From contig OZ017754.1 of the NCBI GenBank assembly GCA_963969365.1, positions 1,860,001 through 1,924,000 on the forward strand: a stretch of DNA of 64,000 bases, in the 5' to 3' direction. The translations under genes and the position numbers were made by a program. The stretch comes from Asterochloris sp. CNOR1 (taxonomy: Eukaryota > Chlorophyta > Trebouxiophyceae > Trebouxiales > Trebouxiaceae). The notes below the pieces were generated by a model. It was not told the origin of the DNA and did no database searches. It saw only the letters and a program-made list of their open reading frames with translations. Shown piece after piece: positions 1,516 to 59,000 of the stretch; positions within the stretch are counted from its first letter, which is position 1, and each line of letters begins with the position of its first letter.

Positions 1516-4500
1516 ATGCATGCTGAGTATGCCGGCGCACCACAGGGCCCGCTGCAGCACCAGCAGCGTCAGCAGGAGGCAGGGTGGGGCGCCTTTGGAG
1601 CCCTCCAGGAGCACCACCCCCAGCAAGAGCTGCACCACCAACAGGCACATGCTCTTGCGGATTCGCCTTTCCAGGGGGGGCAGGAAGGCTGGAACAGCAT
1701 GTCTGGGCTGGCAGGCGCCGAGCTGCAAGCAGTCGCCCACCATGGCTTTGACCAGGGGCACATGGACCAGACCCAGCACCCGCTGGTCATGCAACCACCC
1801 CACAACCAGCAGGCGCAACAGTACCACATGCTGGAGTCTGGGGTTCCCCTGCACCAGCAGCAGGGAGGGGGAGACATAGCCACATCAGCCATGCCAGATG
1901 CAGACGTCGAGACCCGAAAGCTTGTGGTGCTGGGCCTGCCCTGGGAGACGGAGAAAGAGACCCTGCACCAGTACTTTGCCCAGTTTGGCCCCGTGCAGGT
2001 AGGCTTGTCAAAGTCTGCATGTCAAAAGCTTGGTCCCCCAGAATGGTTGTCTGCCTGCAGTGCATGTGCGACAATATGCATGCAAGTCTGTGCTGGCTGC
2101 AAAAGGTGTTATTGCTCCCCTGCACCCTGCCATGCTGTTGTGGTACAGACAGATGGTAGGGAACGATGTGCACAGTTGCCCACCTTGTCATCTGTGCTGG
2201 CACGGGTTCTTGTTCGGGTCTGGGACCTCTAGTAAGAGGGCACAGTGCCTACGACAGTGTGTCCCTGCCTGCAGGAGTCTGTCATTATGAAGGACCGCTT
2301 CACTGGCAAGTCCAGAGGGTTTGGATTTGTCACATACGTCCACCAGGCTGACGCCCAGAACACAGCCGCACTGGAGCACCAGATTGATGGCCGACGGTGA
2401 GCACTGCTGATTACACTTTCAGTTGGTCTTCTGCAGCCAGCCTCTCTTTGAGCCACAGCAAGCTGACCTGACTTCTGTATGGCAGGGCAGTACCGGTAGC
2501 CCCTGCTGCAGAAGCCAGCGCATCGTGAGACGGTGCAGCAAGCAGATGCTGTGCTGTGGGGCCCACCCAGGCATCTGTGCCTTGGGACTGCAGGCCCGTG
2601 CAACAATGCAGCTCCATGCTCTGTGGGCTCTGCCAACACCATAATATGCAGGCAGCTGAGTCTGCTGGCAGCCTGTCATCATGCCACCTCACTGCAAGAT
2701 GCTGCTCATTCCACCTCAGTACTGTGGCTGCCGGTGTTGCCTTCAGGACCCAACATGTCCACAGCCACCTGGATGCAGCTGTGTAGCTAGTTGTGCCACT
2801 GCCCTGGCAGCGCAGTAATAACTACAGGCAGACCCACATTTTAAGGGTAGCGCTGCTGCTATGCAGGTGTGAGGCAAGGCCCTGCCGCGCAGCAGCAATG
2901 CCTTTTGTTGATGAAGCCGCCCGGCAGCTGCCTGATCAGGAGCCTTTGCGCGCCATGCTGCAGGTGTGAGGCAAAGGTGGCCCTGCCCCGTGGCGGGACC
3001 CACCCCAACCGCACGACGCGCATCTTTGTGGCTCGTATCCCCCCAACAGTGCAGGACGCCCAGTTCCGCAGCTACTTTGAGCAGTTTGGGCGGGTGCAGG
3101 ACGCCTACATGCCCAAGGATGCTTTTAAGCAGGCGCACCGGGGCATTGGATTTGTCACCTATGCAACGGCTGAGCCTGTAGAGCAGGTGGGCTTGCCTGT
3201 CGGCATGCTTGCGGAGGAGGGTTACTGCAGAGTGAAGGAACATTGAGTGCCTTTGCGCAGGCGCACCGGGGTGTTGGGTTTGTCACCAAAGCCACTGCAG
3301 AGCCTGTGAAGCAGATGGGTTGCCTGTCTGGGTGCTTGATGGCTGTAGACTGAGAATGCAGGGACGCCTCACAAGCATATGATGATTGTGTCATCCACAG
3401 TGGGCCCAATGAACCCCATGGAGCAAGCGGGCTTATCCTTCTTTAGGAGGACATAGCATCAGCACATTGTCCATGGCATCCCCAAGATCATTGCAGGGCA
3501 GCAGATGAAGCTTAGCACAGGGGCTGACGCCTTCAACAATGTACGAACATGCAGCAACATTGCCCACTCCAGCAGCAGTCTGCAAATCCTCAGCATCTTG
3601 GGTTCAAGATGGTTTGTTGCAGTTGTGTACCCCATACTCATGCATGCAGACAGATGCTTGCGGGCCAGTTGTTGCAGGGTATGGCCACAGCCCAGGGCCT
3701 GCATCTGCCTGCAGCCTGACACCTTTGTTCTGCCCAGATGTAGTGGGCTCTCAAGCTCTGTTCCTGCAGGTGATGTCCACGGCCCACAGTCTCCATGGCC
3801 AGGAGCTGGCAGTGGATCGTGCCACCCCTAAGGAGAAGGCTACCCTGCCTCCCAGCCACAGCAGCAACAGGCTCAGCCAGCAGCTGGCCAGCGCGTTCTC
3901 CCCTCCTCATAGCTCAGGTCAGCTGCCGAGGCCTGCAGCTGCATGTGTGCAGGTTGCGACTCCCGCACAGCTCAGGTCACTTGCCCTTGCCTGCACCTGC
4001 ATGTGTGGGGTGCGAGCTCCTATCCTTTGTGCACAGTGTCAGAACAGCAGTTGAGCTCTCAGGGCTTCAGACCTACGTCTTAGGTGAGCATGCCCCCCTG
4101 CACCTGCATGTGTGCACGGGTGTGAGCCCCCATACTGATCCCTACACAAAGTTGACACAGCTGTTCAGCCTTCAGGGCCTCAAATCCCACAGCTCGGAGT
4201 GCTTGTGCAGGGCACTGGCCCAGATACGCTCTTGCCTGCCCCGGCAAAGGACATTGTCACTGCATACATGAGGCCTGCCCGCCCAGTATGCTGATGAAGG
4301 GGCCTGCTCAGGACACCACTGCCATGAAAAGGGGCGGCCACTTGAATGAGGTGCACTGAGTGCCAGCATCACAGAGGCTGCATATGCTGCTGCAGGCAAC
4401 AGTCACCAGATGTCACCCACCACACTTGCAGCCTACGCTGCAGCATATGACAGTTTGAGCAGCGCGGGCCTTGGGGGGCCTGGGGCTGGTCGAGGCTTAG

Positions 4501-7500
4501 ACCCCCGGCGGGGCAGCCAGAGCCCCACACTGAGCAGCACAACAGGGTACAGCAGGTCGGTGGCCTGCCTCTTTCAGGTTGCATGCAAGCCTTCACGGGG
4601 CTGGCCTTCAATGGCAGCGGCAGGTGCTTCCGAGCTGTGTTCGCTCCTTCCGGACTGGCGCAGTGCCGAGTCTGCCTGCCTTGCTGCCGCATGTGCATGC
4701 AGGTTGATAGCTTCCTGGCAGGTCTATGGTGTTGCAAATCCACTGCAGCTGCTTAGGCTATGAGCATGACGCCGCCCCTACAGCAGGCTGAGGGGTCTTG
4801 CTGAAGTGTGCTGTTTACTCTGCTGCAGTGGTGGTGGTGGTGTGGGGGGTGCCCCAGCGGGCCTGCAGAACTTGGCTCTGCAGGATGCGCTGCAGCAGGC
4901 GCTGGCCATGCAGGGGCACACCGACCCCAGCGTGCTGCTCAGTCTGCAGGGCCTGGCAGGGCTGGACATGCAGACCAACGGCAAGGTGCTGGAGGTGCAG
5001 GCTGGGCTGCTCTCAGCTGCTGGCAGCCTTGCTTGATGCTTGCCCGGCTCCATCAGCCTCTTTCTCAGAGGGCGCACTGAGTGCTGGCTCTGCGGCACAT
5101 CTGCGTCACAGGACAGCCAAGCTTAGCAGCGGGCAAATCTCAAAAGTGGGCAGCTGACATATCTGCGCTTGAGTTAGCCCAAACAAGAGAGGAAAGCCAC
5201 ATCCTTGTGCAGGCGCTGCAGAGCCTGTCCACCTTCCCAGGGCCTCAGCCAAATGTGGGCATGGGCATGCCCCACATGAGCCAGCAGCAGGGCATGCGCC
5301 AGACTCTGCAGGGCTTTGGAGAGCCTGCCTTCCCCCGACCCAGCAGTCCTTCCGGTGACCCTGCTGCACCTGCCTGCTGGCAACCCGCCAGACAGAAGGG
5401 CAGAGATCTGTTTTGCAGCTCTGCACTTCTTCAGGGGTTGTCACTGTCGCCTACTGAAGGTCTTGTCCTCTCCCACCGACAGGGGTCCTGATCTATAGGC
5501 TCCACAAGCCTGCAATGCACCCTCAAGCTTGCTGTTGCATATGTCTGCTGCCATTCTTGAGCGACATGTCATGGGCACATCTGCATGGCTCACAAGCGCC
5601 TTTCACTTATGGCTGTTGTGGGGGGACTGTTGATGTTGTATGTGCGGAGTTTGCATAGGCTCTGCTATAATATGAAGATGCCTGCCACAGAGCCCATATC
5701 CCCTGCAGGCCTCCTGGGACGCCAGTACAGCGGGGGCATGGGCAGCAGAGGGAGCATTCGGGATAGAGCATCCCTGGGAGGTGAGGCGTGCCTGCGCTCA
5801 GCTGGCCTGAAGGCAAGCTACAGAGCCTGCTGTGCATACAGGAAGGTGCTGCGCTCGTGCATGTCGTGCCTGTAAGTCTGCTGCCAGAAAACCCACACCA
5901 AGCTTTCATGGCAGCTATGTGGCATACCCTGTCACATTGGCCTGTCACCAATATCCTGAGATTCCAGGAATGCCTCTTTCTCTTGTTCAAAAGCACCTTG
6001 CTGCTGATGCAGGGAGCAGCAGCGAGCTCATGTCGGGCGTGCAGGGCAGCCCCCGTGCCAGCATGCTGCTCAATCAGCTGGCACGTGGGGAGCTGAACAG
6101 CTCCCTCAGCACCATTGGGGAGCACAGCGTGGCAGGGGCAACCAGCATATCCCAGGCTGGCGGCAGCGCAGCAGGCAGCGTCTCCGGTGAGGGGTCACCT
6201 GCTGTCGACAATTTGGCCTGCATGGTGGCTTGGCAGAGCGTGCCGCCTGCACTGCTATGTCCCACCAGGGGTGGGTGAGGGTGCGGGATTGCTTGCTGAT
6301 GTCTCTGCTCATCAGGTGCTCTGTTCACCAGGAGCTATGCTGCCTTGTGGATCTGCAGAGTCCTCAATGGATGTGTGAAGAGGAGAGCCTGCCATGCCCA
6401 TGCCCATGTTCTGTCTTCATGTGCAGGCCTCCGCTGTTTGTTAACAGGGTCCGCCCTTCAGGACCGCTGTCAACAGCTGTAACACCAACTTGTTGTCTCT
6501 GTGTGCAGGGCCTGCAGATGCGCAGGCGGGGCCTCGCATCTTTGTGGGCAAGCTGAACAAGGACACCACTGAGGCTGACGTGCGCGACCATTTCACCCGC
6601 TTTGGGTGAGCTGCTGGCCAGGCTGTGGGCTATGCCAGCCCTCTCTTTTGGTCCACCCCCGGTTGCCTTGGCCGGCAACCATTTGGTGCGACTGGCTGCC
6701 AATTCAGCTTGAAATTTGCTGCAGCCTTCAGCAGCTCCTGGACTTAAGGCAGAGCAGATCTGCACCAGGAGCTACCTGCACAGACTAGCTACCTCAGCTG
6801 CACCTGGCCCACTCTCTTCACTGGCCAGTACTCAGCTGCATATCCCCCGCTTCACTGCCAGGGTGGTTTCGCACATGTCTTGCATACACTGGCTGGCACC
6901 CTATATGCACCTGCGCTGCCTTTGCTGAGCTATCTGCACTGGCCAGCGCTGACTGTGCCCCTGCCAGGTTGCTGCACATGCCAGAAGTAGAAGGCCGCAC
7001 TATCCTGTCTGCCAACCTGCACATAGTTCGGCCAGGAACTCAGCTGCGTCTTGAGCCCCCTTATCGGCAGCCACAAACTACAAAGGAGTGGCCCCTGCCT
7101 GGCGCTGCTCACCTAGGAGCAGAGCTTCTCATCAAGCAGCCAGCTCAAGCTGCGCACCACTGACAGCCATTTGTCACCATCACTGACCGGCCCCTGCAGG
7201 TATGTGATGGACGTGTACATGCCCCGGGACAAGCTGAACCGCTCTGAGCATCGCGGCTTCGGATTTGTCACCTTTGAGACAGAGGCAGCCCTGCAGCGGG
7301 TGCGGTCCCAGGCTCCTCATCAGATCAAGTGAGTATATCCTCATCGTACTGACCTGTGACAAGAATGGCTGACCGCGTCTCTCAGGTGACCAGGGGGCGC
7401 CCCAGGCTTCTGATCAGATTTCAGCATTAACCCACTACAGTGCTTCAAAATGTTATATATGGGGTGCTTGCCCTTGATACCTCTTTTAGTAGTTGCTCAG

Positions 7501-8145
7501 CGCAATGAGTGTGGTGCAATGCTCCGTTGCTGCCAGCCTCTCGTCTTTCGCCTCTGGGTGAGAAAGGTGTTCTGGGTGTGCAAGGCATGCAGACACTACG
7601 GCCTGTGATGGCCGCAGCCTGCCCACAACTACCCCCCTGCTGTGTCCCCTGCAGGGGTCCTGTGATGGACGTCAACACAGCTAAGCCCTGCAAGGAGCTC
7701 AAGCCCCTGCACCTCCTCATGCATCCTCATTTGTTTTTTGCTATCTGCAGGGTCTCTGGTGTGGATGATAGTGCAGCTGAGCCCCGCAAGGAGCTCAGGC
7801 CTCTGCGCGTTCTATGCGTGTTAGCATACTCTGGCACAGATCTCATCACTCATGTGGCCCGTCTTCAGGGGCTCTGTGGTGGCTTGCTGCAGGGACGTGA
7901 TGCGGTATGCTGTTATGCCCCTGACAACCCTTTCTTGTCCCTGTAGGGGGTCTGTGGTGGCCATCGATGCGGCCGAGCCCCGCAAAGAGATTGAGCCTCT
8001 ACATTTCCCTGACGAAGAGGTGTCTGGCATGCTGTGCCACAGCCACCTCTCAGACATGGCCCGTTTTGCCCTGCACGGGGACGAGCTGGGCCCCTCACGG
8101 CACCACCCCTTTGACCGGCAGCGCTACAACTACAGACCCTACTGA
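1516..8145 (+). CDS. Three-RRM RNA-binding protein (hnRNP/Musashi-like, plant type)
   Basis: Likely binds single-stranded RNA in mRNA processing or translation. Twelve exons join in phase: 1516-1998, 2275-2396, 2964-3186, 3770-3917, 4396-4555, 4829-4985, 5213-5354, 5709-5780, 5968-6186, 6509-6605, 7200-7328 and 7947-8145, giving 716 residues. The N-terminus is Gln/His-rich. RRM1 (about 134-212) has RNP2 KLVVLGLP and RNP1 KSRGFGFVTY; RRM2 (about 220-298) has RIFVARIP and HRGIGFVTY; RRM3 (about 585-665) has RIFVGKLN and HRGFGFVTF. A Gly/Ser/Gln-rich linker of nearly 290 residues separates RRM2 from RRM3. From memory, the RRM1-RRM2 arrangement resembles Arabidopsis At4g36960; that comparison is recall, not a search. 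The start is the first in-frame ATG; an upstream exon could exist. Introns after exons 3 and 4 and before exon 12 carry decayed copies of exon edges. Confidence 0.85.
3251..3343 (+). repeat. Exon echo: decayed copy of the 3' edge of the RRM2 exon
   Basis: This intron segment repeats about 3120-3215, including the gene's HRGIGFVTY-coding bases (here reading as HRGVGFVT) and the donor region. The donor itself is lost: the copy reads AGCAGATGGG where the exon has AGCAGGTGGG. Confidence 0.85.
3912..4151 (+). repeat. Three degenerate tandem copies of an exon edge plus donor
   Basis: The first copy (3912-3970) contains the real exon end and donor at 3917/3918. The second (3971-4036) and third (about 4081-4151) repeat the CTCAGGTCA and CTGCATGTGTG segments with substitutions and small indels, so the intron after the fourth exon looks built from duplicated junction sequence. 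Confidence 0.7.
7641..7900 (+). repeat. Three exon echoes upstream of the last exon of the RRM gene
   Basis: Copies at 7641-7728, 7741-7815 and 7861-7900 resemble the acceptor and first 70 bases of the true last exon at 7947. The first two keep a CAG acceptor and stay open in the same phase, encoding variants such as AKPCKELKPLHL and AAEPRKELRPLR against AAEPRKEIEPLHF in the real exon. The first two share one continuous open frame that runs to the stop made by the TAG of the real acceptor. Confidence 0.85.
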
Positions 8146-9136: not shown

Positions 9137-12100
9137 CTATATGTCAAGGTAGATGCCCATGCCCAATTGCTTTGCATCAGACTCAACCTGGAAGGGGCTT
9201 TTATTAACGTCAAAACGAATACAGCCTCTTGAGGACTCTGTGAGAAGGGCCATCCTGTCGGGTATTGCTTCAGGCTGCTCTGGGAACCACACACCTGGCT
9301 GGCAGTTGCCAGAAAGCATGGCTCTGGCGAAGGCTGCAGTGCAAACCCTGCAGCAGATGGTCCCGTGGTTCTTGTTCTAGGCAAAGCTCACATTACAAAA
9401 ACAGGGCTCGCGCTGGCTCACCCTACACTGTCTGACAGCCGTTTGTGAATGAAGACGCCAACAGCTGTGCTGCCGTCTTCAAGGGCTACATCAATTCTCA
9501 TGCCAACCTGCACACACCACATGCCAGAGGCTCAGGCAACTTCAACTGCAGCAGCCCAGAACAGGACGGGCCAGGAGCGAGACCTTCTTGCAAGTGCAGC
9601 CCTGACGTCAAAAGGATGGCAGGTGTGATTCTCGCCCAGACCACATTGTGCTGCAGTGCGTGGCTTCAAGTGGCAGTGCTTTGGGGTGATACCTGCAGCA
9701 GCAGCCCCAGACGACGCATGAGGGCAAACCTCTGCAGAATGTCTGATAAGGCCAGCCACACCTTCTCGCCCACGATGGGGTCAATGGCGGTAATGACGCC
9801 GCTGGTGGCCTTGGCAAAGGCGCGTATCTTTGCTCTGTCCTCCAGCAGGCGCTTTGGGGCCAGTCTGGCAGTTGCCACCATGGCCCAGTTCCAGAAATCT
9901 GCAGATCGTGCATTCCAGGGGTGGGTTAACACCTGCAGTGAACCTGATGACGGGGACTGGCAGCCAACTTATTGCTGCTACCCAACAGCTTGGCAGGTGC
10001 CACCATGGCCAGGTCTCTGGTGTCTGTGGCACACGTGATACAGGGGAAAGACTTGGGGGCCAAGTTGAAGTGCATGATTTAAAGGGGCAGGCTTGCGCTG
10101 GCTGACAAGCAGAGGCATTGCAAAGTGAGCTTGGCAGCTACTCTGTGCCGTACCCATGCGTAGCCTCAAGCAGTGACAAAGGGCAGAGGCCCACATCAAG
10201 ATCAGGATGGCCAGCACCTACTGGACTTAAGCCGGTGTATAGGCGTGCTGCATGTAGCAGCACTTGCACGATCCTTGTGCGCAGGGACCTCACTGTCAGC
10301 ACAAACGCTCACTTGGGTCAGTTCCGAACCTGGCGCTGACGTTGGGCACCCTCATGTACTTGTGGGTGGACTCCACCTCTGGCAGGTGGTACAGCCAGAC
10401 AGACTTACGCCCCAAGCCCTTGCCAAAGTCCACAACACGTGGCTGCGTGATCGGCTTAGCCTCCACCTGCAGCGCAACAGCAGGCTTGTGAGGAACAGTC
10501 TGCCGCCTTGCTTTGGCAGGCTGTGTGATGGGCTTGGGCTTCCACGCAGAATGGGAGCAGGGGAAGACCAAGTCCTTCTGAGGGAAGGGCTGCTTTCTGA
10601 CCAGGGGAGATTTGCCTGCTGCCCAAGACGTGCAGGGTGGACGGCTGTCCGGTAATGATGAAAGGGCAAGATGCCAACACAACCCTGTCTATGCCAATGC
10701 GTGGATACAGTGCAACACTGTGCCACTGCCAGGCAGCCAGGCTGCTGCCTGCTTGTCACACATCTGGGATCTTGTGGCAGGACCTTCCTTGCATCCGCTA
10801 GCAGTGCACGGGTCATACACATGCCAACAGAGCAGAGCTGCCAGCACTCAGAGAGCAGCCACAGGCATGCACAATCCCAACAGTGGAAAAGCCTTGCAGG
10901 CACGCCGAACACTGGCACAGCACCACTGGTGATGCACTGGATGTGGGCCCCACCTTTTTGCCGTCAACATAAGCTACCACTGGAGTTCCGGCGAGCAGGA
11001 AGCTGGTTTCCATGATTGTGGGTCCCACGCCGCCTGCAGGAGCGGCATCCCCGCAGTATTGTCATTGCGGTATGGTCCCCAAAATCAGCAGGTTGTTGCT
11101 GGCCTGCACAGCCCGCCGAAGCAGGAGGTGCCCTGTACACGCCTCTGATACCGCTCAGCATCCAGCGAGGCATAACAGCAGGGGAGCAGCGCAAGTTCCC
11201 ACCTGAGGCTCTGCTTCCAGCTTTCTGGCAAACCATGCAGGCACCTGCCAGACATGCAAGCAGATTCACAACCAGCTGTCCCTGTGCAAGCTTGCCAAGT
11301 CGGATGCAGCCAGCAACCGGTTCAGCTGGCAGGGATGCCCAGCTGCCCCATTGCAGCAGGGAAGGCAGGCCTGCATGGAAGCGCTGCAGGGCATCTGCCC
11401 CGACCCACCTGTGCCCGCTGTGTAGTAGTAGTATCTTACAGACTTGGGCTCCACTGACTCACTGCCGTTGCTGGATTGCTGCCCCACCCAGCGCCCTTCG
11501 CTGTCACACTCGCGCCGAGCAGTGGACACCATGTGGGCTGCCATGACGTTGCTGACCCCCGGGTAGATGCCTGCACCAGGAACAGCCTGAAGAACAAGAA
11601 GGTCCGGGCCACCGTACTAGCCTCTGGTGTGGGCTGCATCTGTCTGCCCAGAAACAGCAGCCAGCTGGCTGGTGCATGGCAGCTCAAAGGCTGTCAGTTG
11701 CTGCACACCTACCTTGACAGCGTCTGCCAGAGGGGTGACACCTGCTTACCCAGCAAGAACTTGCTGAGCACATGGCACTGCAAGCTCTGCAGCAGAATTG
11801 TGGCCACAGTGGCCACTGGTGCACCACTGGGACATTCACTGCCTCTGCCCTTATTATGAAACCCCATGAATGAGCAGGCAGGCCTAGTACTGCCTACATG
11901 GTCTTGAACTCAGGGAGCCACCCTCTGCCCCCAGGCAGTGCCCTTTGCTGTAGAAGCCCCCAGGATCCTGCCAGCATACAAATGCAGATACACAGACCAT
12001 TCTCATGGCACATCACTGCCCAGGTGGGCAAGCACCCTGCTCAACTGCACGCACCTGCAGACGTAATGGCTGGCACCCCTGCTGCCTTGGCCTGCTCATG

Positions 12101-13373
12101 ATACTCCTTGGCCCGCGCTGCATAATCTGAATCGTCACAGATGTCCACATATGCCGTCCCCGTCTCCAGGGCTGCCTCCAGGACATAGCAGTCGCCTTTC
12201 CGCTGGAAGGGGCCAGCAGTGTGTAGCACGAGGTCCACTCCCTTGAAGGCTGCCCGCAACGCTGCAGGGTCGTTGCGGTCCACTGCCAGAAAGCGGCAGG
12301 CCTTGAGCTCGGGGCGGGATTTGAGGGCACGCTGGTAGCTTGCCTGCATGGCATGGCACGGCTTGGCCTTGGGCAAGACAGTGGTGCACAGCGGCCAGAA
12401 CTTGGTAGGCCTAGAGCTTCGGCAAGGGAGGAAGAGCAGGCCGGCGAGTCTAAGCTGAGAGTGAGCTGGTCGCTGTCCAAGTCACAATACAAGTGCATCA
12501 TCTGGATTCAGTGTCCCCCATGCCAGGTAAACAGGCAGCCAATGTCGCCTTTGTGGGTGGTGTCAGGCCCACAGTGCGGCACAAGGTGGGCTCCACTGCT
12601 GAGACCGTGGATTTATGGCATCCTGTCAGCATGCAGCCTCACGGTGGAGACTGTGCACAGCCTGACAGCAGGATGCAGTCTAAGCAGGCAGGCTGCGAGC
12701 CACACTACCTTTCGACTTGGTGCTGCTGCCCAGAAGGAAATGACTGCACTTCTGGAAGAGGTCAGCAACGCCGCACAGCTGTGTGTGAGCCAGCAGCCTC
12801 AAAGCTGAGGCTGTGCACAGCAGCCTCACAGCAGCGTGACTCTCACAAATCAGTGTCACCCTGCACCCCAAACAGGCTTGCTGAGAGCCAGGCAGGCTGT
12901 GATGCCCCCCACCTCGTTCCTGCTGCCCAGAAGGATGTCTGCATTGGTAGAGGAGTCCAGCAGTGCCGCCGCCGTGGAGGCACCCACTCTCCCTGCAGCA
13001 TGCAGCCTGTGCCTGTCTGCTGTTGATATGGCCCCAAGCACCAAGAGGTCACCAAATGTTGCAGGGCTCAGCGCTGCATCATGGTGAATTAGCACAAATG
13101 CTGCTCACCTGTGCCTCCAAGAATCAAAATCACCTTCCGGTCAGTGCTGGAGCCCTGAATGCTGCTGGCATCAGTGCTGGGGTGCTGAGTGGCATGCTTG
13201 GCATCCTGCTGTTGCTGTTGAGCCCTCACGTGGCCCCTGCCATGCCGTGAGTGGCACCATCTTGCCTGCTCAGTCAGACAGCGCTGTCCTATGTTGAGGC
13301 TGCTTGGTTTGGTCCGCCACTTCACCACAGGTAGCAGGCAAGTGTGTTGCAGATGCAACTGTGCCAAACTCAT
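9137..13373 (-). CDS. Saccharopine-dehydrogenase-like NAD(P)-binding oxidoreductase
   Basis: A Rossmann-fold oxidoreductase of the saccharopine dehydrogenase-like family; the substrate cannot be told from sequence. Nine exons join in perfect phase (13373-13109, 12992-12913, 12343-12055, 11570-11409, 11033-10954, 10466-10313, 9898-9693, 9507-9422, 9347-9137) for 510 residues. The nucleotide-binding loop reads VILILGGTGRVGASTAAALL, split after GGT-G by the first intron. Other family blocks are LAVDRNDPAALRAAF, LVLHTAGPFQ, GIYPGVSNVMAAHM, YYTAGTGG-V-GPTIMETSFLL, NVSARFGT-FWNWAM and PGVWFPEQPEA. The first 60 residues are basic and Ser/Gln-rich with no fold motif, which suggests an organelle transit peptide. 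The start is an ATG at 13373; the frame extends a few codons upstream without another ATG. Two introns carry exon echoes. Confidence 0.85.
9981..10040 (-). repeat. Exon echo of the start of the oxidoreductase's seventh exon
   Basis: This intron segment repeats roughly 9861-9925, the region covering the acceptor and the first codons of the FWNWAMVATARLAP exon. The shared core is GCCACCATGGCC with flanking matches; the copy no longer encodes the motif. Confidence 0.6.
12724..12790 (-). repeat. Exon echo of the Rossmann GxGxxG exon
   Basis: It repeats about 12915-12985, sharing CTGCTGCCCAGAAGGA and the GAGGTC/GAGTCCAGCA stretch. The source encodes the second half of the nucleotide-binding loop. 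The copy lies downstream of that exon in transcription order and is shifted by indels, so it is not an intact alternative exon. Confidence 0.7.
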
Positions 13374-27100: not shown

Positions 27101-28019
27101 TAGAGTGGAAGCTATCAGCCCACTGGTCTTGCTGTGTGTGCAGCAGCAAGAGTTGCTTGACAGCATGCCACCTGCATCTCAGCTGCGTGGCTCATCTTGT
27201 GCAGACCGGCAGTGGAGTGGGCTGGTCAACTCCCAGTCCACGCCCGACATTGCAAAGGTTTGCAAGCAAGCCGACAGCCCGGCGCCGACTGCGCCATCAC
27301 CCTTCGCCAGTCAGCAAGCTCAGGAGCGTGCTTACAGCGACACCCTGACCTCTGTGGGTGGCCTGCCTGGAGCCTTGCGGTGAGCACACCAAGCTGTTCT
27401 GACCTTCCTGCTCTGCATCAGCTGCATCTGCAGCTCAGCAATGTTTTGACTGGAAACCTGTTCAGAGCCTTGCTGGGAACAGAAGGGTGCATGCAGCTGC
27501 TATATCAGTGAGGGTCCTGTGCAGGTCCTCAGTTGCGGCAGACAGGAAACTCGTCAGAACACCACACCATGAAACCATTGACAGCCTATTTTGGCGCCTA
27601 CTCACAAGCCCCAGCTGCGTGCTGCGCCCTTGCCAGCTCTTGTCGCTGCGTCTGGAGCCAAGTCCCTGACCAAGCAAGCACCTGGACGTGCACGGCTGAG
27701 GGGTGCAAGCCTGGATCATTGCCCTACAAGAGTGGCAATGTGGTTCCACAGCAATCCTCCATCTAATTCAGCTGGCACTTGGCTGTGCAGGGCTCTGGGG
27801 CGTAAGTCTGGATTTCTGCCCTACAAGAGCGACTTGGTGGGCACGACCAGCACAGCTGCAGCCTTCACGCAGTCGATATCTGATGCCTTCACGCTGGATG
27901 CCAGCCTGGGGCGCCCCTCAGTGACTGCCAAGCGCCCACCTGCTGAGGACGCTGCATTCTCTAATGCAGCCCCACAGAGCAAGAGGCCATGCCCAAGCGC
28001 TGCACAGGCGCAGGGATGA
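21174..28019 (+). CDS. CCA1/LHY/REVEILLE-like single-MYB transcription factor (circadian clock type)
   Basis: In plants these proteins bind evening elements and form the morning loop of the circadian clock; a clock role here is inferred. The first exon is 21174-21284 (ATG at 21174), then 21525-21616, 21961-22073, 22297-22364 (or to 22475), 22656-22856, 23074-23312, 23540-23834 and 24107-24227. Later exons include about 24360-24575, 25105-25248, 25605-25880, 26407-26555, 26745-26914, one ending at 27379 and a last exon 27791-28019. The MYB is RKPYTITKQRERWTEHEH, then WRRIEDHIGTKTAVQIRSHA and QKFFSKLEKE, the SHAQKFF form of CCA1/LHY. Next comes the diagnostic NIPPPRPKRKPSHPYPRK block. The tail carries GFLPYKSD, like the GF-PYKR motif of plant relatives, and long Ala/Gln/Ser-rich stretches. 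Intron 1 has a GC donor. The joins between 24.2 and 25.6 kb and near 27.4-27.8 kb are uncertain. Confidence 0.85.
22740..22835 (+). repeat. GCN/CAG-type run encoding a poly-alanine stretch
   Basis: Short imperfect trinucleotide repeats inside a coding exon of the CCA1/LHY-like gene encode a stretch dominated by alanine, with eight in a row. Such low-complexity tracts are common in algal transcription factors. Confidence 0.8.
27690..27752 (+). repeat. Exon echo of the last exon of the CCA1/LHY-like gene
   Basis: This repeats about 27785-27848, the acceptor and first codons of the last exon. Both copies share TGCCCTACAAGAG, the PYKS-coding core, separated by about 95 bases. Confidence 0.75.
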
Positions 28020-28436: not shown

Positions 28437-28441
28437 TTACA
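28437..28441 (-). terminator. Candidate polyadenylation signal TGTAA for the YCII-domain gene
   Basis: TTACA on the plus strand, i.e. TGTAA for the minus-strand gene, about 50 bases past its stop. A plus-strand TGTAA at 28456-28460 could serve the CCA1/LHY-like gene, so the two convergent 3' ends may overlap. Confidence 0.4.
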
Positions 28442-29095: not shown

Positions 29096-29482
29096 GGCCT
29101 GCAGATGGAGACCACAGGTCCTCAACATCAGCTATGGTGATCCTCAACATTAGCTATGGTGTAACTGCTCAGCATCACATTGTGACTTCAACCTCACCCT
29201 GGCAGCCACAGGGCTTCGCTGCTGCCTTGCCATGCCAGCTTTGTATGTGGGCAAGACAACAGATCGAGAGAGGAGTCTGGCCATGTTGGTTACTGCATGC
29301 ATGCGAATGGTCAAATTCATGGTCGATCCATGTTACTTGCTCATCCTCAAAGTATGACAGGTCCGGTCTTCTGAGGCACTCACAGATAGCTGCAGCACAG
29401 CATCTTGCATGCGAGTCAACTGTAGGCTGTGAGACTCCAGGCATGATTGTAAGACTGCCAAGTATTGCTGCAGCATTGTGGA
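29096..29482. promoter_or_regulatory. Shared divergent promoter region, YCII gene and FUSC-like gene
   Basis: 387 bases separate the two ATGs, which point away from each other. The stretch contains the 22-base tandem repeat listed separately. I recognise no TATA box or other core element. Confidence 0.5.
29119..29162. repeat. Two tandem copies of a 22-base unit
   Basis: Copies at 29119-29140 and 29141-29162 share TCCTCAACAT-AGCTATGGTG and differ at two bases. They lie 24 bases upstream of the YCII start codon, where they could be a cis element or simple slippage. Confidence 0.9.
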
Positions 29483-45203: not shown

Positions 45204-46406
45204 ATGCTGTGCAGCTATCTGCAGAGGCAGAAATCGAACATAGTCATCAGATCTAGTCCTGCACCAGCGCAAGCTAGACAGTGTCGAAGGTGCAGGCCAA
45301 TGCCCACTGCCTCGCAGAAGAAGCTGATCACAGACAACATCCGCGGCGTACCAGACTTCCCCAAAAAGGGCATCCTCTTCTGGGATATTACAACTCTGTG
45401 CCTGAACCCTACAGCCTTCCAGCAGTGCATTGACCTGTTTGTGGAGCGGTACAAGGGCAAGCAGATAGATGTGGTGGCAGGTGAGCCATGCCGCATTGAT
45501 GTGAGTCACCTGAGACCAGCAAGATGCACTTGCCCTGCTTGCGCAAGCACCATACCAAGGTCCTCATAAATCACTTCCTCTTCCTGCACAGCAGCCCTGC
45601 ATGCTGTGTCCTTTCACTGGCTGTACCCTTTGTGACCAGGCTGCTGGCAATGCAGGTTTTGAGGCCAGAGGGTTCATCTTTGGGCCACCCATTGCGCTGG
45701 CCCTTGGCGCCGGCTTTGTCTGCCTGAGAAAGCCAGGCAAGCTGCCAGGTCAGCTCAAGGGACTGCTTGCTCCACTTTGCATTGCATGACTTTATATATA
45801 GAGCTGAAGTGCTATGCCTGGCTGTGGCCAGAGCTTGTGGCTTGTGGCATCACAGCAGCGGCGGCCATGCCTGTGCTGTTTGCAGCCTGGGTTGGTCAAT
45901 GCGGCTTCCAGAGGCTCTGTTGCCCTCGCGGTCGAGCATCAGAAAATGGCCCATATGGTACTAAGCTGGGACAGCCATCGGCGCCCCAGCTAACCATGTT
46001 GCTGGGCATCACTCAGGCAGCCCATGGCATGCTCAACAGGCAAGACCAATGGGGCCAGTCACCAGGGGGACCTTGTTGCTGGCCTCTGTTGCTGGCCGTT
46101 AGTTATACGCAGCTCTGCACATGCCTTGCAGGCAAGACCATTGGCGCAGATTACCAACTGGAGTACGGCGTGGACCGCATCGAGATGCACGAGGGGCATG
46201 TGCAGCCGGGCAACAAGGTGCTGCTCATAGACGACCTCATAGCCACAGGGGGCACCATGGCGGCTGGCATAAAGCTGATGAAGCAGGTCGACGCCAATAT
46301 TGTGGAGGCTGCCTGCGTGATCGAGATGCCCGACCTCAAAGGCCGTGACAAGCTGGATGCATCAAAGGTGCCCCTCTTTGTACTGGTCGAAAAGGAGGGC
46401 GCATAG
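45204..46406 (+). CDS. APT: Adenine phosphoribosyltransferase
   Basis: Converts adenine and PRPP to AMP and pyrophosphate in purine salvage. Three exons (45204-45480, 45656-45748, 46132-46406) give 214 residues. Family blocks are [19 protein letters not shown],  [44 protein letters not shown] and the PRPP-binding motif [13 protein letters not shown] at about 153-165, with both acidic residues present. I chose the ATG at 45204 because the first 40 residues ([12 protein letters not shown]..., rich in Arg, Ser and Gln, few acids) look like an organelle transit peptide. An upstream in-frame ATG at 45048 would add 52 residues. The core is the normal length of about 175 residues. The intron before the last exon contains an exon echo. 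Confidence 0.93.
46037..46070 (+). repeat. Exon echo of the APRT last exon
   Basis: CAGGCAAGACCAATGGGGCC and the next bases repeat CAGGCAAGACCATTGGCGCA at the last exon start (46129). The acceptor AG and the GKT codons are kept. Confidence 0.8.
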
Positions 46407-50037: not shown

Positions 50038-53000
50038 TCAGAGGTGCGTCTTTTCTCCATCTGCTGCCAGCCTTAGGTCCAGTGGAGGGCGCCAGAAGCT
50101 GGCACTGTTGAATTCACGCTGCAGATCCTGCTGGTCTTGCTCAGAGTTGCCCTTGGTTGGGGACAGCATGGCATCCAGGCTGTCAGAGTGGTCTGACTGG
50201 AACAGGCTGCTGTTGCGGGCGGCGCGCGCATTGGGGCCGCCCAAGCCTGCCTTCCCAGGGCTGCCCCGCTGCGACAGGGCGGCCTCTGCGCCTCGTGCGC
50301 TGGAGCCCTGCTGCAGTGGCCCTGATGTCAGCAGCCCTGGCGGGGCATTCGCCTGCCCAGCAGCCGTCCTGGAGCCATCGTAGCTGGGTGCCTGGTCTGC
50401 GGCAGCAGCAGGACGAGCAGCGGCAGGCTGCTGGCCTGCGAGGCTGGCCCCGCTGTCAGCTCCCCTGCTGCCAGACTCCCAGTCGGGACTGGCGGGGAGA
50501 GCCTGATTCCCGTCGTCCCAATCAGGGCTGGCTGGCAGGGAGGTGCTGCTGTCGTTCTCGGCGGCTTTGAGCTGCTTCAGAGGGCTCAGGCGTAGCACCT
50601 CTCTGTCACCCTCATCCTGCTCCTCCGAAGCGGCCCCGCGGCTGCCGTCAGCGCTGCTGCCTGAAGCCAATGGGAGTCCAGGCTCCATGTTCTGCCTTGT
50701 CAAGTGTGGCTTAAGGGCAAAGCACAGCTCAATCCCAGCACAGGACCTGCTCAAGTGCTGAGCAGAAGTGGTCCTCAGTGTCAGGCACTGAGGGACACGT
50801 GGTGCGAGAAGAGACCGAGGGACTTTAGTCAAAAACAACAGAGAGCGCAAGTCTTGTGAGGTCAGGCCCAGCCGTGAGCCAGCAGCGCTACGCGGCTGTG
50901 CAGGCCCATGCCCCAGATGCTGTCATACTGCCAGCACCCCTGACACAGTCCCTTTCTGCCTACAGTCTGGCCTGGACCCCGCACAGCAGCTATGCGATAA
51001 AGCAAGGCGCAGGCAAGCGCTTGTAAGCTGGTACAGCCGAGTGTCCAGATCATGAGAGGAGCATGCAGCAGTGTGAGGCGCAGCGCAACAGCCTGAAATG
51101 GTCTGTTCAGGCTGAATTGGGTCGGCTCAAGCTTGTTACTCAGATGGCAGCTTGCAACATAGTGCAGCCAGATCCTCACCTGGAGCTGGCTGAGACAGCC
51201 TAAGCACCTCCAGAGCATCCACCAGAACCGCGTCATCCTCGTGGCTGTGGTCTTCCTCGTCCTCTGAGGTGACCACCACTGCATCGTCGTCCAGACCCCT
51301 ACCCTCCCCGTTGGCTGCAGCACAGACGCTGAGGTGCATGATGCAGAATAGCAGCGGCCAACACAGGGACACACGCCTGCCATCTCAGAAAATGCCCAAT
51401 GCACTGGATAGCATTTAAGCATTGTAACTACCCAAGCAATGGTGACTGCGAGAGGTGCAGCACACTAGATGCCCGCAAGCATGAAGGTGCCCAGTTGCCC
51501 CAACCGCAGACCTTGCTGCATGTCTGCTATGCGCAACGGGGTGTTTGCAGTGCCGAGGGAGCACAAGGGTCCCTGCTTGCAACGCTTTGGTGCAAGCAGC
51601 GGGGTTCAAAAGCCGGTGATCTGCACCTTCTGTCAGAGGGCTTTCGTCAGACCCTGAATCATCGCTGCTCCAGTGCATGGCCTCCGTGGTGCCCCAGCCA
51701 TCGTCTGATAGCTGGTTCTGGCCCCACTCCATCGGCTCCTGCAGCAAGAGGCGCCATGCAGCTCAGGCAACACGCACAGGCAAACACGCAGCTGGCCACA
51801 TGTAGCTGCTGCTGTGCAAGCTTAGTGACAAGCAGCAAAGACGGGGTCCAGGGGTTGGCGAGGGCGCACAGCACCCCTCATTGCACAGCCACACTCCTGT
51901 CACAGCATTCTCACTTTCACCAGCCCAGCCCCCCCTTGGGCTGCCATGCTCACCTCGCGTCAATGCCAAGACCTTTTGCACAGCAGCCCTGATTTCACAG
52001 GAAGCCCCCATTGGGCTACCATGCTCACCTTCGATCAATGCCTTGCAAAAATAAATCCCCACAGTGGACTATCCAGCTCACCTCCCGTCGATGTCGTGGC
52101 CCACACTGTGGCGGCGACACGCTGTCCTCCCAGTCGTCGGGCGCCACCAGGGGGAAGGATGTCAGCCCGCTGCCCTTGATGCCTGCATCCGCAAAGGGGC
52201 TCCTGCCTGCAGGCAACTGGGCGGGGTCACCCTGCAGGGTGGGGCGGGGCAGCGCAAACAGGCCACCCCACTTCCAAGCAGGCAAGGCAAGGCACACACT
52301 ACCACTCTGGGGGCGCCTGCTGCCTGTGTAGGGCCACAAGTGCAGGGCAAGCAAACTCTTGTTGGCTCACAGCCAGCAACAGGCAGGCATCTGTCTGCCC
52401 GTTGGTGCAGGCCTACTGGAGTCCAGCTTCAGTCAACAGCAGTGCAAGTTTCAGCCCGTGTATCCGGCCTGCACTTCCTGCAATGAGGCACTGCAGCTGC
52501 AGGCACGGGCAGGCAAGCTCTGCCTCACACTGTTCCTGAGGGGATGGTTGCAGCTGGAGACAGTGTCATGTAGGCAATGCCTCCCCACATTTTCTTGAGG
52601 GTCATTGCCAAGGCAGCCACGTACCTTTGCCTGCTGGCTTCCTGTTGGTCGCACCGTTCTCCTGCACATGGTTCTCCTCTGCAGCATCCTCATCGTCATC
52701 ATCAAAGGCGTTGTACCTGCGACACAGCAGCTGGTGTCCTACTCTAGCAAGCTTGAACAGCGCTCATCAGACTCATGCGCTGCAGTTGGCCGCGACCTCA
52801 CGAGGGTGAGCAACATTGGACTGGACCCACAGCCTGTGCGCAACAACACAATGGGTGCCATCAGGAGTCGCTGCGTGCCAGAGCCTCATCCCAATGCAAG
52901 AAGCACAACATCTGGTGCAGTGTGCTTGTCAACGGTGTGTGAAGTCAGAGTGGCCAGGATCCTGCCTGCAGTGCTTGTGGCAGCAATGCCGCTCTTCTGG

Positions 53001-56000
53001 CGTACAGCAAATGCCAGCATGCATTCCTGCGGGCTCACCTGTCGGTGGCAGCGCCTGCTGCTGCCCCTGTGTTGCTCCCATAGCCCTCTAGGGCATCAGA
53101 CAGCACCAAACCTTGCTCCAGCTCACCTTCCAGTGGCCGCGCCTGATGCTGCCTGCGTGTTGCTGGCAAAGTCTCCGTTCAGAGCATCCAGGTTGAGCTC
53201 GTCCTGGAAGATGTCCTCGCCATCACTGTCCCCTGCAGGGATGCTCAAGCGCGCCTGCGGCCTCCCGCAGGCCCACCTGTTGACATTCTCCACCTGCACA
53301 GGCGACACCACACAACTTGAGTGGAGGTCACTGCTGTCATGACTGGTGGCTGCCAAGTTGGTACAGCCACCGCGATGTGAGGTCTACAGGCCCACTTGTT
53401 CAGACTTTTCACATGCACAGGCAGGGCGGGTCTGACTGAGCTGGCCTCCAGAGGTATGGGTGCGGGCCTGCGGTCCTGCCTGTTGACCTTCTCACAGGCG
53501 CACAGGGCATTTGGCACCAAGAGGCAGTGATCTGTGACTGCACGCTCTCTTTTTTCAGGACTTTGACCAGGCAGCCCTTCTTACATGAAAGGCTCTGGGC
53601 ATTTAGTGATTCAGGTTGCAGATCTCCACCTGGCAGCTGGAGCCACACACAGTCAGGTCCCATCAGGTGCTGGCTGGAGCACATCGTCTCATCCATGCAG
53701 CGCAGCGGCAGCATACTGCTGCCACTCCTCCTTTCCCTCCAGCAGGGCCTGCCAAAACCCACCCGACCAGAGAAGGAGTGTACCAATAACCTCCTCTCTC
53801 CGCAAAACAGACTGGGCAGCCCACCTCATTGCGCTCGCGCAGCGCGGTTGCAGCGTACTGCTGCCACTCCTCATTTCCCTCCAGCAGGGAACGCACTTCA
53901 GGGCGCAGCCGCACCACCTCCTGCAGCTTATTGGCCACCTGGGTGAGGTGGCCCATGTACCCTGCGCGGATGGGCGGTCGCGTCTCGCCCCTGCGAGCAA
54001 GCAACGGGCGAAGTCAGCATGGAGGCCCCTCCACCCCTGCTCTGCCAGCTAACAGGGGCAGCCAGGTGTCCCCCCGCAGGGGGGGCAAGGAACAGATGCA
54101 GTCAGAACAGAGCCCCAACCCCCACCAACCCTGCTCCCTCACCTGATGGGGGCAGCCAGATGTTCCCATTGCAGGAAGCAAGCAATGGCAGCAGTCAGCA
54201 CAGCAGCAGGCCCATGGAGAGTGCGCCTTTCAGGGAAGCAGGGGGCACTGCAGTCAACAGGAAGGCTGATGCAGCAGGCAAGCCAGATGCAATCTCCAGA
54301 GATGGGTGGCCAAGATGTGCCTCTGCAGGCCGAGAGGCAGAAATGCAGTCAGCACAGGCAAGCAGGCTGTAGCCAGCAGCAAGTCTGATGGAGCAGGGGG
54401 GTGGCAGGAAGGTGGGTCGTGAGGCAATAATCCACCTTGCCAGTACGATGCGCACAGTTGACCCCCCTCTTGTTGCACAAATCAACAGTTGCTAATGCGC
54501 TGGTGGACATCATGTCGACAAAGATTGCAGCCCAACCCAGGTGCTGACTTGCACGGGATCCTCAGACTGCAGCTGAGGCAAAAGCGTGAAAGAGGCCATG
54601 ACGAACACTCACTCATCTGTGCACACAAGCTTGCCTGGGGTCTCCTGGCCGTGGCTTGGGCAGCACTATCACTGGAGCTGTGACCAGCCACTGCTCCAGT
54701 TGGCAGTCATGGAAGAGGTGCTGCAGCAGCTCTGGGCCTGCGCCGTCCAGGGCCACGCACAGAATCGAGGTGACCTGGTGGTGCAAAATTGAATTGAAGG
54801 GGAACTGCAGGAACAGCTCCAGGGAGCGTCGTAGGAGCCCTGCAGCAGTGACAGGTCCAGGTTTCAGCATGGAGGTGACCTTTGTGGTGCAACATCACGT
54901 GAAGGGGGACTGCAGGACCAGCGCCAGGCAGCGCGGCAAGAACCCTGCAGGCAGGCATGTGCGCAGAATCGTGAGAGGTTGTTGCACAGCCGTGCTGCAG
55001 CAACTCATTGCTGAAAGACCAGTACTGCATGCAGGTGCAGCTGAGGAGTCTTCCAAGATACGCGCATGCTTCTATTCTACATTGCTGAGCATGGACTGCA
55101 TGGCGGCGCTGCTGCACATCCCATCAGGTGCAGACTGGCAGCCAGGGCAGCAGTAAGAGTGATGGTGCGCACCTTTAGGCATGCGTGATCAAAGCCCACA
55201 GCACAGTATGCCAGCTGCTGCCAATTCCAAGACCATCCCAGATTTCAAACCTCTTGGTGCTGGACGGTGACTGGCAGGACATGGCATGCGTGCACTGACC
55301 TGATGCCATGACTGCCTGCTCAGCAACCTGCTGCCCTGTGCGCAGCAATACCGCCACCAGGGCAATGGCGGTCAGCCGCGTAGACCCTAGCGGGGGTTTC
55401 AACATCCCATATGTTGTTTCCTGCTCAGGGACACCGTCCTGCCCCTCTGAGGGTGTTTCCAGCAGCGCCAGCAGCTTGTCTGCAGGCAGGGGAGGCACAC
55501 TGATGCAATACAGCAAAGGCAGCTGGCGGTCTTCCGTGGGGGCACTGAGGGCGGGGGTGATGTGCCAACAGCATCTTTGCAGGGAAAGACGGGGCAGCTG
55601 CTGAGCAGACAACTTGGGCTGGGGGTGCCGGCGTCAGCACAGCCAGCAGCTCTTTCTGCAGGCACAGCAGTAATTGAGGGTGGGCCATGCTCATAGCAGG
55701 AGACCAGGTACTCTTTCACCAGATTTGACACAGACAGTGACAAGCAGCTTGTTTTCACCTCAAGAGGCAGTAGAGAGCATTCATGGCCATGTCATGCGTG
55801 GGAAGCAGCTGCAGAGCATAACCCAAGGGGCCAGATCAGATGAGATGGGTCCTGGGCCACTCCTGCCCAGCAATTCCTGCCTAGCAACCCCAACAAGAAT
55901 GTTGTGCTGAGGAGGCAGCCGTACCTATGTGCTGCAATGTGGAGCTGCCCAGCCAAGTTTCACTGCAGGTGCACTCTGCCCAAGAGTTCACGTACCAAGC

Positions 56001-59000
56001 AAATTTGTTCAGGGAGGGTCCCCTCACCTGTGTGCTGCGAGATGCCCTGCACAGCCAGCGCCTCCAGCTGCAGGTCCAGCTCTGACGAGACTGGCACAGC
56101 TGGACTGCCTGGCACTGGTGTGCTCCACCCAGTGTTGGGGGCCTCAGGTTGGGGGGGCGCCTGCGCAGGCTGGCGGTCCAGGAGGGCTATGCACACATTC
56201 AGGGCCTGCACAGCAATGGAGTGATAGGTAAGATGTGAGGTCGCTAGGTATGCAGAGATTGCAACAGGCCAGATGTGCACTTCGGCCAGTTCAGTCCAGA
56301 GCAGGCACAGCCCACTGCGCTATGGCTGCAGCGCTATGCCTGCATCCAAGCCTACTTCAGCTTCAGCCTGGCCTCGTCACGGACACCTGCCCTACAGAAT
56401 GCTGGCTGCACCACTTGCACCAGCCCATATCCTGCTCTGGCTCAAGCCACCGCTGCATCAGAGTCAGCAGGCCTTTGCTGCTGCTACAGCAGGCAACCCA
56501 GGCCCACGGCAGATTAGCGTGCTAGCATGCCCAAAACCCCCACCTGTAGCAGGCGGGCCCTGCCAAGCCCCTCACAACCAGAAACACATGAGCCACCGCT
56601 GTCAGCCCCACCAGCACCAGTCCGCGCTTCCTCAGAGCGGGTCCTGGAAGTCCTTCACAGTCAGAGGCACGAGGACACTCCTGGGTGCACCACCTCTAAT
56701 GCTGGCACGCAGGCGCGCTCTACCACGGCTGCCACTGCAGCCCCTGCCCAGCGGCTGAGCATGCATGCCTCCCCAACCTCCAGGTGGGTCCTGCCAAGCC
56801 CCTCACAATCAGGAGACATGACCCACCCCTGGCCGCCCCACCTGCACCAGCCCGTGGTCCTGCTCCGGCGCAAAGGCGCGCTCCATGAGGGGCTGCAGGT
56901 AGGCCTTGCTGGTCAGGCTGGCCGTCAGGGGCGAGCTGTGGGCGCGTGCGATGGCTGCCAACACCTCACCAGCGTGCTCCCGCACGTCGTGGCTGTACTT
57001 GACATCCAACCTGCACAGCGCGGGGCGCAGGGCTCAAGCTTCATGCATGGGGACGAAGAGCTACCACAGGAGGCTGATAAGGCTCAGAACGCGCATTTGC
57101 ACATCTTCACTGTCCTCAAGGTCCAGCTTGAAACGAGCAGCAGGTTGCACAGCACAGCAAGCAGCAAAGCAGCAGACCAGCAAGCAGCACAGAAGGTCCA
57201 AGACCTGAATGTGCCAGGCGCAGGACTCTAGCCCGAGACTTTCGAGCAGGTTCCAGCACTGCCTTTCAAGCAGCAGGGCCCCAACCTTGCCGATGCTTCC
57301 CGCTGTCTGCACCTGTCCAGCAGCCTCTGCACGAGCGGCTTGTCCCTAGCCACTCCAGCTGCACACGCCCTGCTACCCACAACGGCAACATTTCTGTGTG
57401 GCTGCTCCCAGGCAGAAGCACCAGGCAGCTCCCGAGGCACTCCCGACGCACAACCCTGCCCACGCTTTCCCACCTGTCTAGGAGCATCTGCATGAGGGTG
57501 GTATCCCTCAGCCACTCCAGCTGCTCTGCCGATGCATAGTTGCTGATCTGCTCGTCTGCGCCCACCAGCTTGACCAGGGACTCCATGATGCTGAAGGTGT
57601 CCATGTGGCCCACCAGCTGGTCCAGCAGCTCAGGGCGGCCTGCATCACAGTGAGGACGGCCCTGAATTGTGGCCAGTGTCAGCTAGAGCAATTGTGCAGT
57701 CCACTACCTCGCCAGCAGCTCCACCTGGCCTGCAGCAAGCACACCGGTCTGCAGATAACCTGGAAGCGGTCTGAACGCAGAGCATGACCTGCTCATCTGC
57801 TTGGAGTCGGAGTCAAACTCTGTTGGTCTGCTACCCCATATGCACCTGCAGGGGGGACGAGATGTTCCTTGGCACATTGCAGGGGTGAGCAGGTACTCTG
57901 GGTGTAGCGTGATGGCAGCCCGCAATCATGGCTTTCAGCGAGGACTCAACCTAGGGGAGCCATCCCTGCGATTGCACAGGACTATGCAAGTGTGCAGCGC
58001 TGCTAGAAATGGACTCAGGCCTGTTCTGTGTCTTCAGAGCCCATGCAGCAAGTGTTTGCAGCAAACAAGTGCCTTCCTGAACATATAGGATTGCGATCTC
58101 CACCTGGCAACGCCAGCCAGCTCACTGCAGCCGGCGGCACGCACATCCCTGCGCATTTCACCTACAACTACTCGCAAACCCAGCCCTGCTGCAGGGGCCT
58201 CTGTGTAGGGGCCTCTTTGTCGGGCAGTATATACCAAGACTCACTCCGGCAGAAGCCGTAGACGTCCCCGCTGCGCTTGACCAGCAGGATCTGCAGCACG
58301 CGAGCCCAGTAGCCTGCCAATGTGCAGTCCAGGGGCTTGGGGCTCTGCAGGAAGCTGAACAGCAGGTCCATGAGCTCGGGGCTCTCAATCAGCGTGCCAA
58401 TGATGGATTCCGGTTCGCAGCAGAACACCTGCAGCACAAGCCAGCAACTGTGTGGTGTGGCCTTGCAGGACAAGTGGTGCTTCAGGGTAGGCGTGAGGTG
58501 GCAGAGGGATGGGGACCACATGGCTGCCAGGGACCCCTCGTGGCTCAGTGCAAATCCACCAGCAGGGTCAGTGCCTTTCACAGTGTGCAGCAGCAGATTC
58601 TGGCGCTGCCACCCACCTCACTGAGGCAGTGGCACGGAACAAGTGTCACACCAGTGCTGGTACCCACCTCGCAGGCCGTCCGGGGCATCTTGCGTGGCCG
58701 GATGAGTTGCTGCTGCAGGGGCACCGGCTGCTGGTTGCGGGGTGAGGACCCCTCGCTGTCAGACCCCCCGCTGGGCTGCTTCACAATCAGTGTGATGAGC
58801 GCCTCCACCTGCTCATGCTGTTTCATGAAGGCGATGAGCCGGGTGTTCAAGCTCTTGACCTCCTGCAGCACGGGGTGGACGGGGGGTTGAACTCCAGCTT
58901 GCAGAAGATCGGCCTGAGCCTGTGTGGCAGCTCACTGATCCAGCAGCAATGGGGACAGCACAGCTTGCACCAACCTCTGAAGTAGAGCAGACACACTGCT

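Follow-up and report, generated by a model that had tools for sequence, protein, structure and literature searches.

In rice, tandem duplications are the commonest insertions, are enriched at 50-200 bp and have been ascribed to patch repair of adjacent nicks (PMC7971508), and in helq-1 mutant worms tandem duplications of about 100 bp to 10 kb, with a median of about 1 kb, arise through end joining by polymerase theta (PMC8654963). Introns are also known to be gained by tandem genomic duplication (PMC3443670), and one potato gene offers an example at close range: an intron-exon junction was duplicated and the copied acceptor is used. An 83-bp tandem duplication inside an intron, mentioned in the same paper, represents the intron-only case (PMC4974935). 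We analysed a 64,000-nucleotide stretch of the alga Asterochloris sp. CNOR1 (the window; contig C9, positions 1,860,001-1,924,000), in which a preliminary description made from the letters had reported that introns carry same-orientation, decayed copies of the adjacent exon edge, splice site included, across positions 3251-57372. These copies, which we call echoes, are real: many introns hold same-direction, worn copies of the neighbouring exon edge, and in the window they form clusters running from 3120-3338 to 57301-57524.

The echoes probably belong to a known kind, tandem genomic or internal gene duplication, the latter being tandem duplication inside genes, which a citing paper terms common in eukaryotes (PMC4974935, PMC3443670). 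Like the duplications reported in rice they are direct, adjacent copies of about 50-200 bases; unlike those, which are recent and were found between varieties, they are mostly diverged, lie within one genome and have units of up to 365 bases (PMC7971508). As in the potato gene, the duplicated segment contains an intron-exon junction with its acceptor and lies beside its source, but there the copied junction is used, giving a new intron and an inserted exon, whereas here the copies appear unused and decaying (PMC4974935). The intron-gain signature of tandem genomic duplication (PMC3443670) is absent from most of our clusters. The helq-1 worms show a repair route that yields tandem duplications, although with a median of about 1 kb against 105 bases here (PMC8654963). 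Our partial coverage of the literature returned no inventory of decayed exon-edge copies among the matches listed.

We examined the window together with 200 kb of contig C1 from position 1,000,001 (C1 offsets below are counted from 1,000,000); all statistics refer to these 264 kb, out of a 56.4-Mb genome of 21 contigs. Genes were predicted with a self-trained coding model and a splice-aware gene finder, trained on the sequence itself, which gave 39 gene models with 564 exons and 525 introns (median intron length 264 bases) and a splice consensus of CAG/GTGAG at donors and CTGCAG/G at acceptors. In a Pfam check confined to the window models, the C1 models being predictions alone, all eight submitted predicted proteins or parts of proteins matched families: RRM (two stretches), transaldolase plus saccharopine dehydrogenase NADP domain, mitochondrial carrier, phosphoribosyltransferase, SAPS, Myb and FUSC_2. 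Two window models that combine unrelated domains are probably mergers, and some weak predicted exons are doubtful.

Direct repeats are present far above chance. In a banded scan, every position was locally aligned with the sequence 24-700 bases downstream at score thresholds of at least 22 and at least 25, and the partner was shifted by 20, 31 and 43 kb for the far-offset control. At a score of at least 22 the scan returned 99 near-direct pairs (within 700 bases) versus 1, 1 and 1 at the far offsets, and at a score of at least 25 it returned 73 versus 0, 0 and 0. All pairs in an earlier chunk-wise blastn set, at 34 bits or more, are 90 bases or more apart; the banded scan also covers the shorter distances. 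We also compared exon ends with introns, restricting the test to predicted introns of 80 bases or more (495 of the 525). At a score of at least 22, an exon end matched the intron adjoining it in 24 of the 990 comparisons, against none of 990 against the same intron reverse-complemented, none of 990 against another intron of the same gene (one at a score of at least 20) and none of 3,960 against introns of other genes. The preliminary description had itself proposed this comparison of own with other introns as the way to overturn its claim, and the pattern survived. The motif CTGCAG, common to the predicted acceptors, could seed spurious matches, but the far-offset, other-gene and reverse-complement controls are near zero, so that chance or composition has almost no likelihood as the origin of the echoes. 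Individual alignments, such as that of 3120-3211 with 3248-3338, are continuous through exon, donor and intron.

Grouping of overlapping pairs with a unit of at least 60 bases and a score of at least 22 gave 57 clusters, 19 in the window and 38 in the C1 stretch, or one per 4.6 kb, with units of 62 to 365 bases (median 105). The copy distance of 70-250 bases reported earlier falls inside this span, which is wider at both ends. Junction echoes occur in five of the six window gene models and in 17 of the 39 models overall; the earlier count of at least seven genes is thus plausible rather than exact, two of those five models being probable mergers. The pattern is pervasive over the 264 kb, and local duplication with graded decay that lengthens introns is seen on both contigs. 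To call introns 'built from' such copies was, however, an overstatement, with 39 junction-intron clusters among 525 predicted introns.

By class, the 57 clusters comprise 39 junction-intron, nine intron-intron, two exon-intron, two exon-exon, four junction-junction and one intergenic. Under random shifting of the pairs, the expected number of junction-intron clusters was 13.8 (sd 3.3) and that of intron-intron clusters 18.8 (sd 3.6), or 13.8:18.8:5.5 for junction, intron and exon-only, against the observed 39:9:2. The geometry of the 39 junction-intron clusters is strict: 21 are donor echoes lying downstream of their source and 18 are acceptor echoes lying upstream, with none reversed, exactly as had been claimed for exon 3′ and 5′ ends. 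Such a layout is forced: when the end of an exon is duplicated in tandem together with the start of its intron, the first copy alone stays attached to the remainder of the exon. Each of the 39 holds one donor or one acceptor and never both, and whole-exon duplication, with both splice sites and the frame kept, was not found among them.

The copies decay on one side only. The earlier blastn set comprises 37 clusters, of which 30 are junction-type pairs, defined by an exonic share above 4% in just one of the two copies. Among these 30, mismatches affected 17.5% of second, 24.8% of first and 27.7% of third codon positions and 26.3% of noncoding columns, a pattern in which the exon side is constrained and the echo side is free. 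Exon-derived parts contain 19 indels, all of 1-2 bases and none a multiple of three (1.4 per 100), and noncoding parts contain 45 (3.6 per 100). Splice dinucleotides are kept in 20 of 27 readable junctions, where our own arithmetic gives a neutral expectation of 17 to 19 of 27 at k 0.2-0.25, and the spacing is divisible by 3 in 13 of the 39 junction-intron clusters. Indels, codon mismatches, dinucleotide retention and spacing together indicate that the echoes do not code for protein and are not visibly maintained as splice sites.

With few young copies among them, the duplications give the impression of an old wave. Identity reaches 85% in only three of the 57 clusters and 84% in two of the 39 junction-intron clusters (C1 offsets 133369 and 95882), whereas at a constant rate the simulation puts about 31% of junction pairs at or above 84%. 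The scarcity does not come from loss of young repeats alone, because the old copies were once young; presumably either the duplication rate dropped or the assembly lost (collapsed) young repeats. Repeat-induced hypermutation was considered as a reason for the paucity of young copies and rejected on the mutation spectrum, which is ordinary: in three site classes, transitions account for 53%, 54% and 47% of the mismatches, and changes from C to T plus those from G to A number 59, 36 and 76 against 41, 31 and 73 in the reverse direction (raw counts, without composition normalising). The youngest-looking larger array, of junction-intron type, lies at C1:1,112,562-1,112,837 (L013), with a unit of 79 and a core 93% alike over 2.1 copies.

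We consider it fairly likely that the echoes are what is left of ordinary short tandem duplications, with units of about 60 to 365 bases, and that junctions were not their main target. A duplication whose unit runs from within an exon across one junction into the intron would be tolerated, the outer copy keeping the exon whole and the inner copy being spliced out with an intron that is now one unit longer. Selection would then preserve the exon copy but leave the stray one to decay, and exon-held pairs would stay recognisable for longer than wholly intronic copies. Such slower decay, together with the purging of duplications within exons, could account for a large part of the junction-centred look. 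For the mutational step, the mechanism proposed for rice, repair of staggered nicks or breaks, is the likeliest, and most of the duplications are probably old.

The quantitative case for random placement comes from a simulation in which random tandem duplications were laid into the real gene landscape, allowed to decay with constraint on the functional copy only and recovered by similar detection. This random-placement model yields a strong junction surplus. In the row nearest to the observations, with splice-site constraint included and k 0.22-0.28, the junction:intron:exon-only ratio was 181:85:64, and a second setting with k 0.28-0.34 gave 221:73:45. Compared with the 42 observed junction-type pairs, the nearest row was similar in the score percentiles (22/31/56 observed, 24/33/56 simulated), the identities (66/73/82 and 67/72/80), the median coverage (0.72 and 0.67) and the exon fraction (0.63 and 0.71). 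One-sided constraint alone lifts the junction:intron ratio from 0.7 to 2-3, against an observed 4.3. Since the exon copy is conserved, junction pairs diverge more slowly than intron-only pairs, and the plain shift null, which takes no account of this constraint, exaggerates junction targeting.

Several results weigh against random placement as a complete account. Scaled to 50, the two simulated rows become 27:13:10 and 33:11:7 against the observed 39:9:2, with chi-square values of about 12.2 and 4.8 on 2 df by our own arithmetic; exon-only echoes are fewer, and junction echoes more numerous, than simulated. A younger row of the first setting (k 0.16-0.22, 296:269:61) fits worse, and the settings were picked by eye, without fitting. 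When exons were masked and noncoding columns alone were scored, by the same rule for observed and simulated pairs, 24 clusters remained (12 intron-intron, 11 junction and one junction-junction), and the junction share of 11 of 23 compares with simulated shares of 0.17-0.36 over eight rows (p 0.0006 to 0.18). The two rows matched in identity (70.1 and 71.8%; observed 63-80%) give 0.25 and 0.19, with nominal p of 0.015 and 0.002. This masked test is post hoc, comprises 23 pairs on self-made gene models and would also respond to conserved intron-end signals beyond the modelled 6-8 bases. Homology, moreover, covers the unit head to tail (at least 0.9) in 20 of the 57 clusters and 0.6-0.9 of it in 18, but less than 0.6 in 19, and the 48 flanks of incomplete clusters retain scarcely any residual identity (0.265 versus 0.259 ungapped; gapped score p 0.04), so the incomplete clusters are not established as whole tandem units. 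Larger indels may have interrupted what were once tandems, or these may be short local copies that arose differently; the clearest of the incomplete cases is a 51-base, 90% copy at 53697-53747. Taken together, a residual junction preference of about two- to fourfold in odds is possible; its cause may be constraint at intron ends, the annotation or a slight bias in mutation. The earlier description of the echoes as junction-centred holds in part: much of the surplus can be produced by random placement with one-sided selection, and some of it remains with exons masked.

The same residue is what an account by junction-targeted mutation would emphasise, in which transcription, R-loops, exon-positioned nucleosomes or splice-motif repair copies junctions into the neighbouring intron. 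It draws on the 39 of 57 clusters at junctions against 13.8 by shifting, on the rarity of exon-only echoes relative to the random model and on the masked junction share at matching ages; in addition, among clusters with units shorter than 60 bases junctions are not favoured (2 of 15, 2.0 expected), so the annotation itself is not the source of the preference. One-sided constraint, on the other hand, already supplies a ratio of 2-3 out of 4.3, intron-only tandem pairs of similar size exist (nine clusters, and 12 of the 24 after masking), and the masked result, post hoc and from 23 pairs, would also register conserved intron-end signals. We regard such targeting as unlikely, and hold the same doubt about its strongest form, a wave of short tandem duplications biased to exon-intron junctions that left roughly ten thousand or more local echoes, a good number of them from exon edges, with junctions as hot spots, and then largely stopped; the ten-thousand figure is an extrapolation from 57 clusters in 264 kb to 56.4 Mb.

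Readings that assign the echoes a function or a different product fare worse. That they are present or recent alternative or mutually exclusive exons, or selected spare splice sites, would agree with the 20 of 27 dinucleotides kept and with a few short echoes whose edge at the splice site is sharp (one lies at C1 offset 95882/95973), yet none of the 19 exon-derived indels is a multiple of three, position 1 changes almost as frequently as position 3, and dinucleotide retention is near the neutral rate. This makes such roles very improbable, and the earlier suggestion that echoes supply spare splice sites finds no support in a retention that is about neutral. Intron gain, in which an AGGT-bearing exon segment is tandemly duplicated and whole introns derive from exon copies, is a known mechanism that works on the same raw material (PMC3443670, PMC4974935). 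It predicts that a single intron has copies over its donor and its acceptor, at a spacing equal to its length, and most clusters do not fit this: 39 of the 57 clusters pair one junction copy with one intron copy, only four have a junction in both, and one of those four (33830-33993) depends on a low-scoring exon. We judge this the less probable still of the two. Dispersed similar copies, as expected of introners or transposons, were not seen either, with 1, 1 and 1 far-offset pairs at a score of at least 22; a self-comparison of the 200 kb of C1 gave ten distant matches at E ≤ 0.01, five of them from one tandem gene pair and the others weak, and dispersal beyond the 264 kb was assessed with one 401-base query against the rest of the genome. 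The gene pair, at about C1:1,102,100-1,109,100 (L012), is a diverged tandem some 3.5-4 kb apart, with aligned pieces 62-68% alike.

On the reading of the echoes as ordinary short tandem duplications, an intron can grow by taking up copies of the exon edges beside it, and a junction-centred pattern can result when mutation that is blind to position is followed by selection on one copy only, which is a pitfall for pattern finding. Each echo and its source form a fossil pair of which one member is constrained, and such pairs could serve to date a past wave of tandem duplication or to measure neutral decay in genomes without close relatives. Should the residual preference hold genome-wide, splice junctions would be duplication hot spots.

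In the window, the RRM-domain gene (Pfam; plus strand) provides several examples. The 3′ end of its exon 4 (2964-3186), with the donor and the start of the intron, is the source at 3120-3211, and its echo, placed by alignment in the following intron at 3248-3338 (128 bases away, 80.4% identity), now has AT for the donor GT. An intron-only tandem pair with a unit of 108 follows at 3971-4182 (69.8%). The acceptor and 5′ part of the last exon of the gene model (7947-8145) form the source at 7931-8067 of a three-copy array whose upstream echoes lie at 7649-7722 (pairs at distances of 96 and 294) and 7745-7865 (distance 197). Part of the latter is predicted as exon 13 (7751-7819), probably wrongly, which illustrates that gene finders can call echoes as exons. 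At 4611-4684, a tRNA-Arg(CCT) called by ARAGORN overlaps a predicted exon; with no Rfam match in the window at gathering scores, it is probably false.

Further along, on the minus strand, the donor edge (12912) of the exon at 12913-12992, with its source at 12889-12969 by the gene model, has an echo at 12685-12774 (distance 204, 68.9%), and the acceptor edge of the exon at 14674-14837 and its upstream echo (14981-15083) together span 14821-15083 (distance 160, 64.8%). The next six are on the plus strand. An acceptor edge at 27770-27840 (exon 27791-27920 of the gene model) is echoed at 27673-27743, where the AG is lost (distance 97, 73.2%). The acceptor edge of the exon at 33968-34116 and its upstream copy occupy 33830-33993 (distance 95, 77.5%), classed as junction-junction; the predicted exon at 33875-33916 (exon 28 of a long model, coding score 0.7) is probably an echo of the next exon's 5′ end. 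A donor edge (36236) with a downstream echo at 36332-36395 spans 36227-36395 (distance 105, 68.1%), an acceptor edge (exon from 38967) with an upstream tandem copy spans 38761-38975 (distance 74, 76.2%), and echo and source of the acceptor edge at 41269 lie within 41148-41314 (distance 117, 75.0%). The acceptor edge of exon 4 (46132-46406) of the phosphoribosyltransferase gene (Pfam) and its echo span 45997-46156 (distance 90, 67.1%).

The remaining clusters of the window are on the minus strand. An intron-only tandem pair lies at 51866-52042 (distance 82, 68.6%). The exon at 53127-53293 is echoed at both edges, its donor edge within 53033-53188 (echo and source, distance 88, 73.5%) and its acceptor edge within 53268-53422, where the upstream echo has lost its splice dinucleotide (distance 119, 80.6%). 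The sharp-edged 51-base copy at 53697-53747 derives from the exon interior at 53839-53889 (distance 142, 90.2%), and the acceptor edge of the same exon (53825-53990) with its upstream echo spans 53982-54203 (distance 86, 65.9%). A head-to-tail copy of the acceptor edge at 54839, with a unit of 102-105, occupies 54737-54950 (76.1%). In the SAPS-family gene (Pfam), the donor edge (56841) of the exon at 56842-57010 has its source at 56750-56854 by gene model and scan, an echo at 56516-56624 (distance 234, 77.3%) and a weaker further copy at 56296-56471 (distance 427, 63.0%), and the donor edge (57473) of the exon at 57474-57639, with its source at 57463-57524 (again by gene model and scan), is echoed at 57301-57362 (distance 162, 79.4%).

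Other observations concern repeats and sequences of different kinds. A 22-base direct repeat at 29119-29161, 95% alike, is a young small-unit tandem. The window and the C1 stretch contain 28 imperfect self-palindromes at 34 bits or more, and an apparent excess of near-inverted pairs (29 pairs, blastn) proved to be an artefact of these: all 28 clusters are self-palindromes, in which the score counts each base pair twice. Near the start of contig C19, at 10167-10916, lies the best protein-kinase match of the genome, full length and in one open frame of 713 aa, in contrast to the partial, exon-sized matches elsewhere in the list; a retrogene or a foreign contig is possible.

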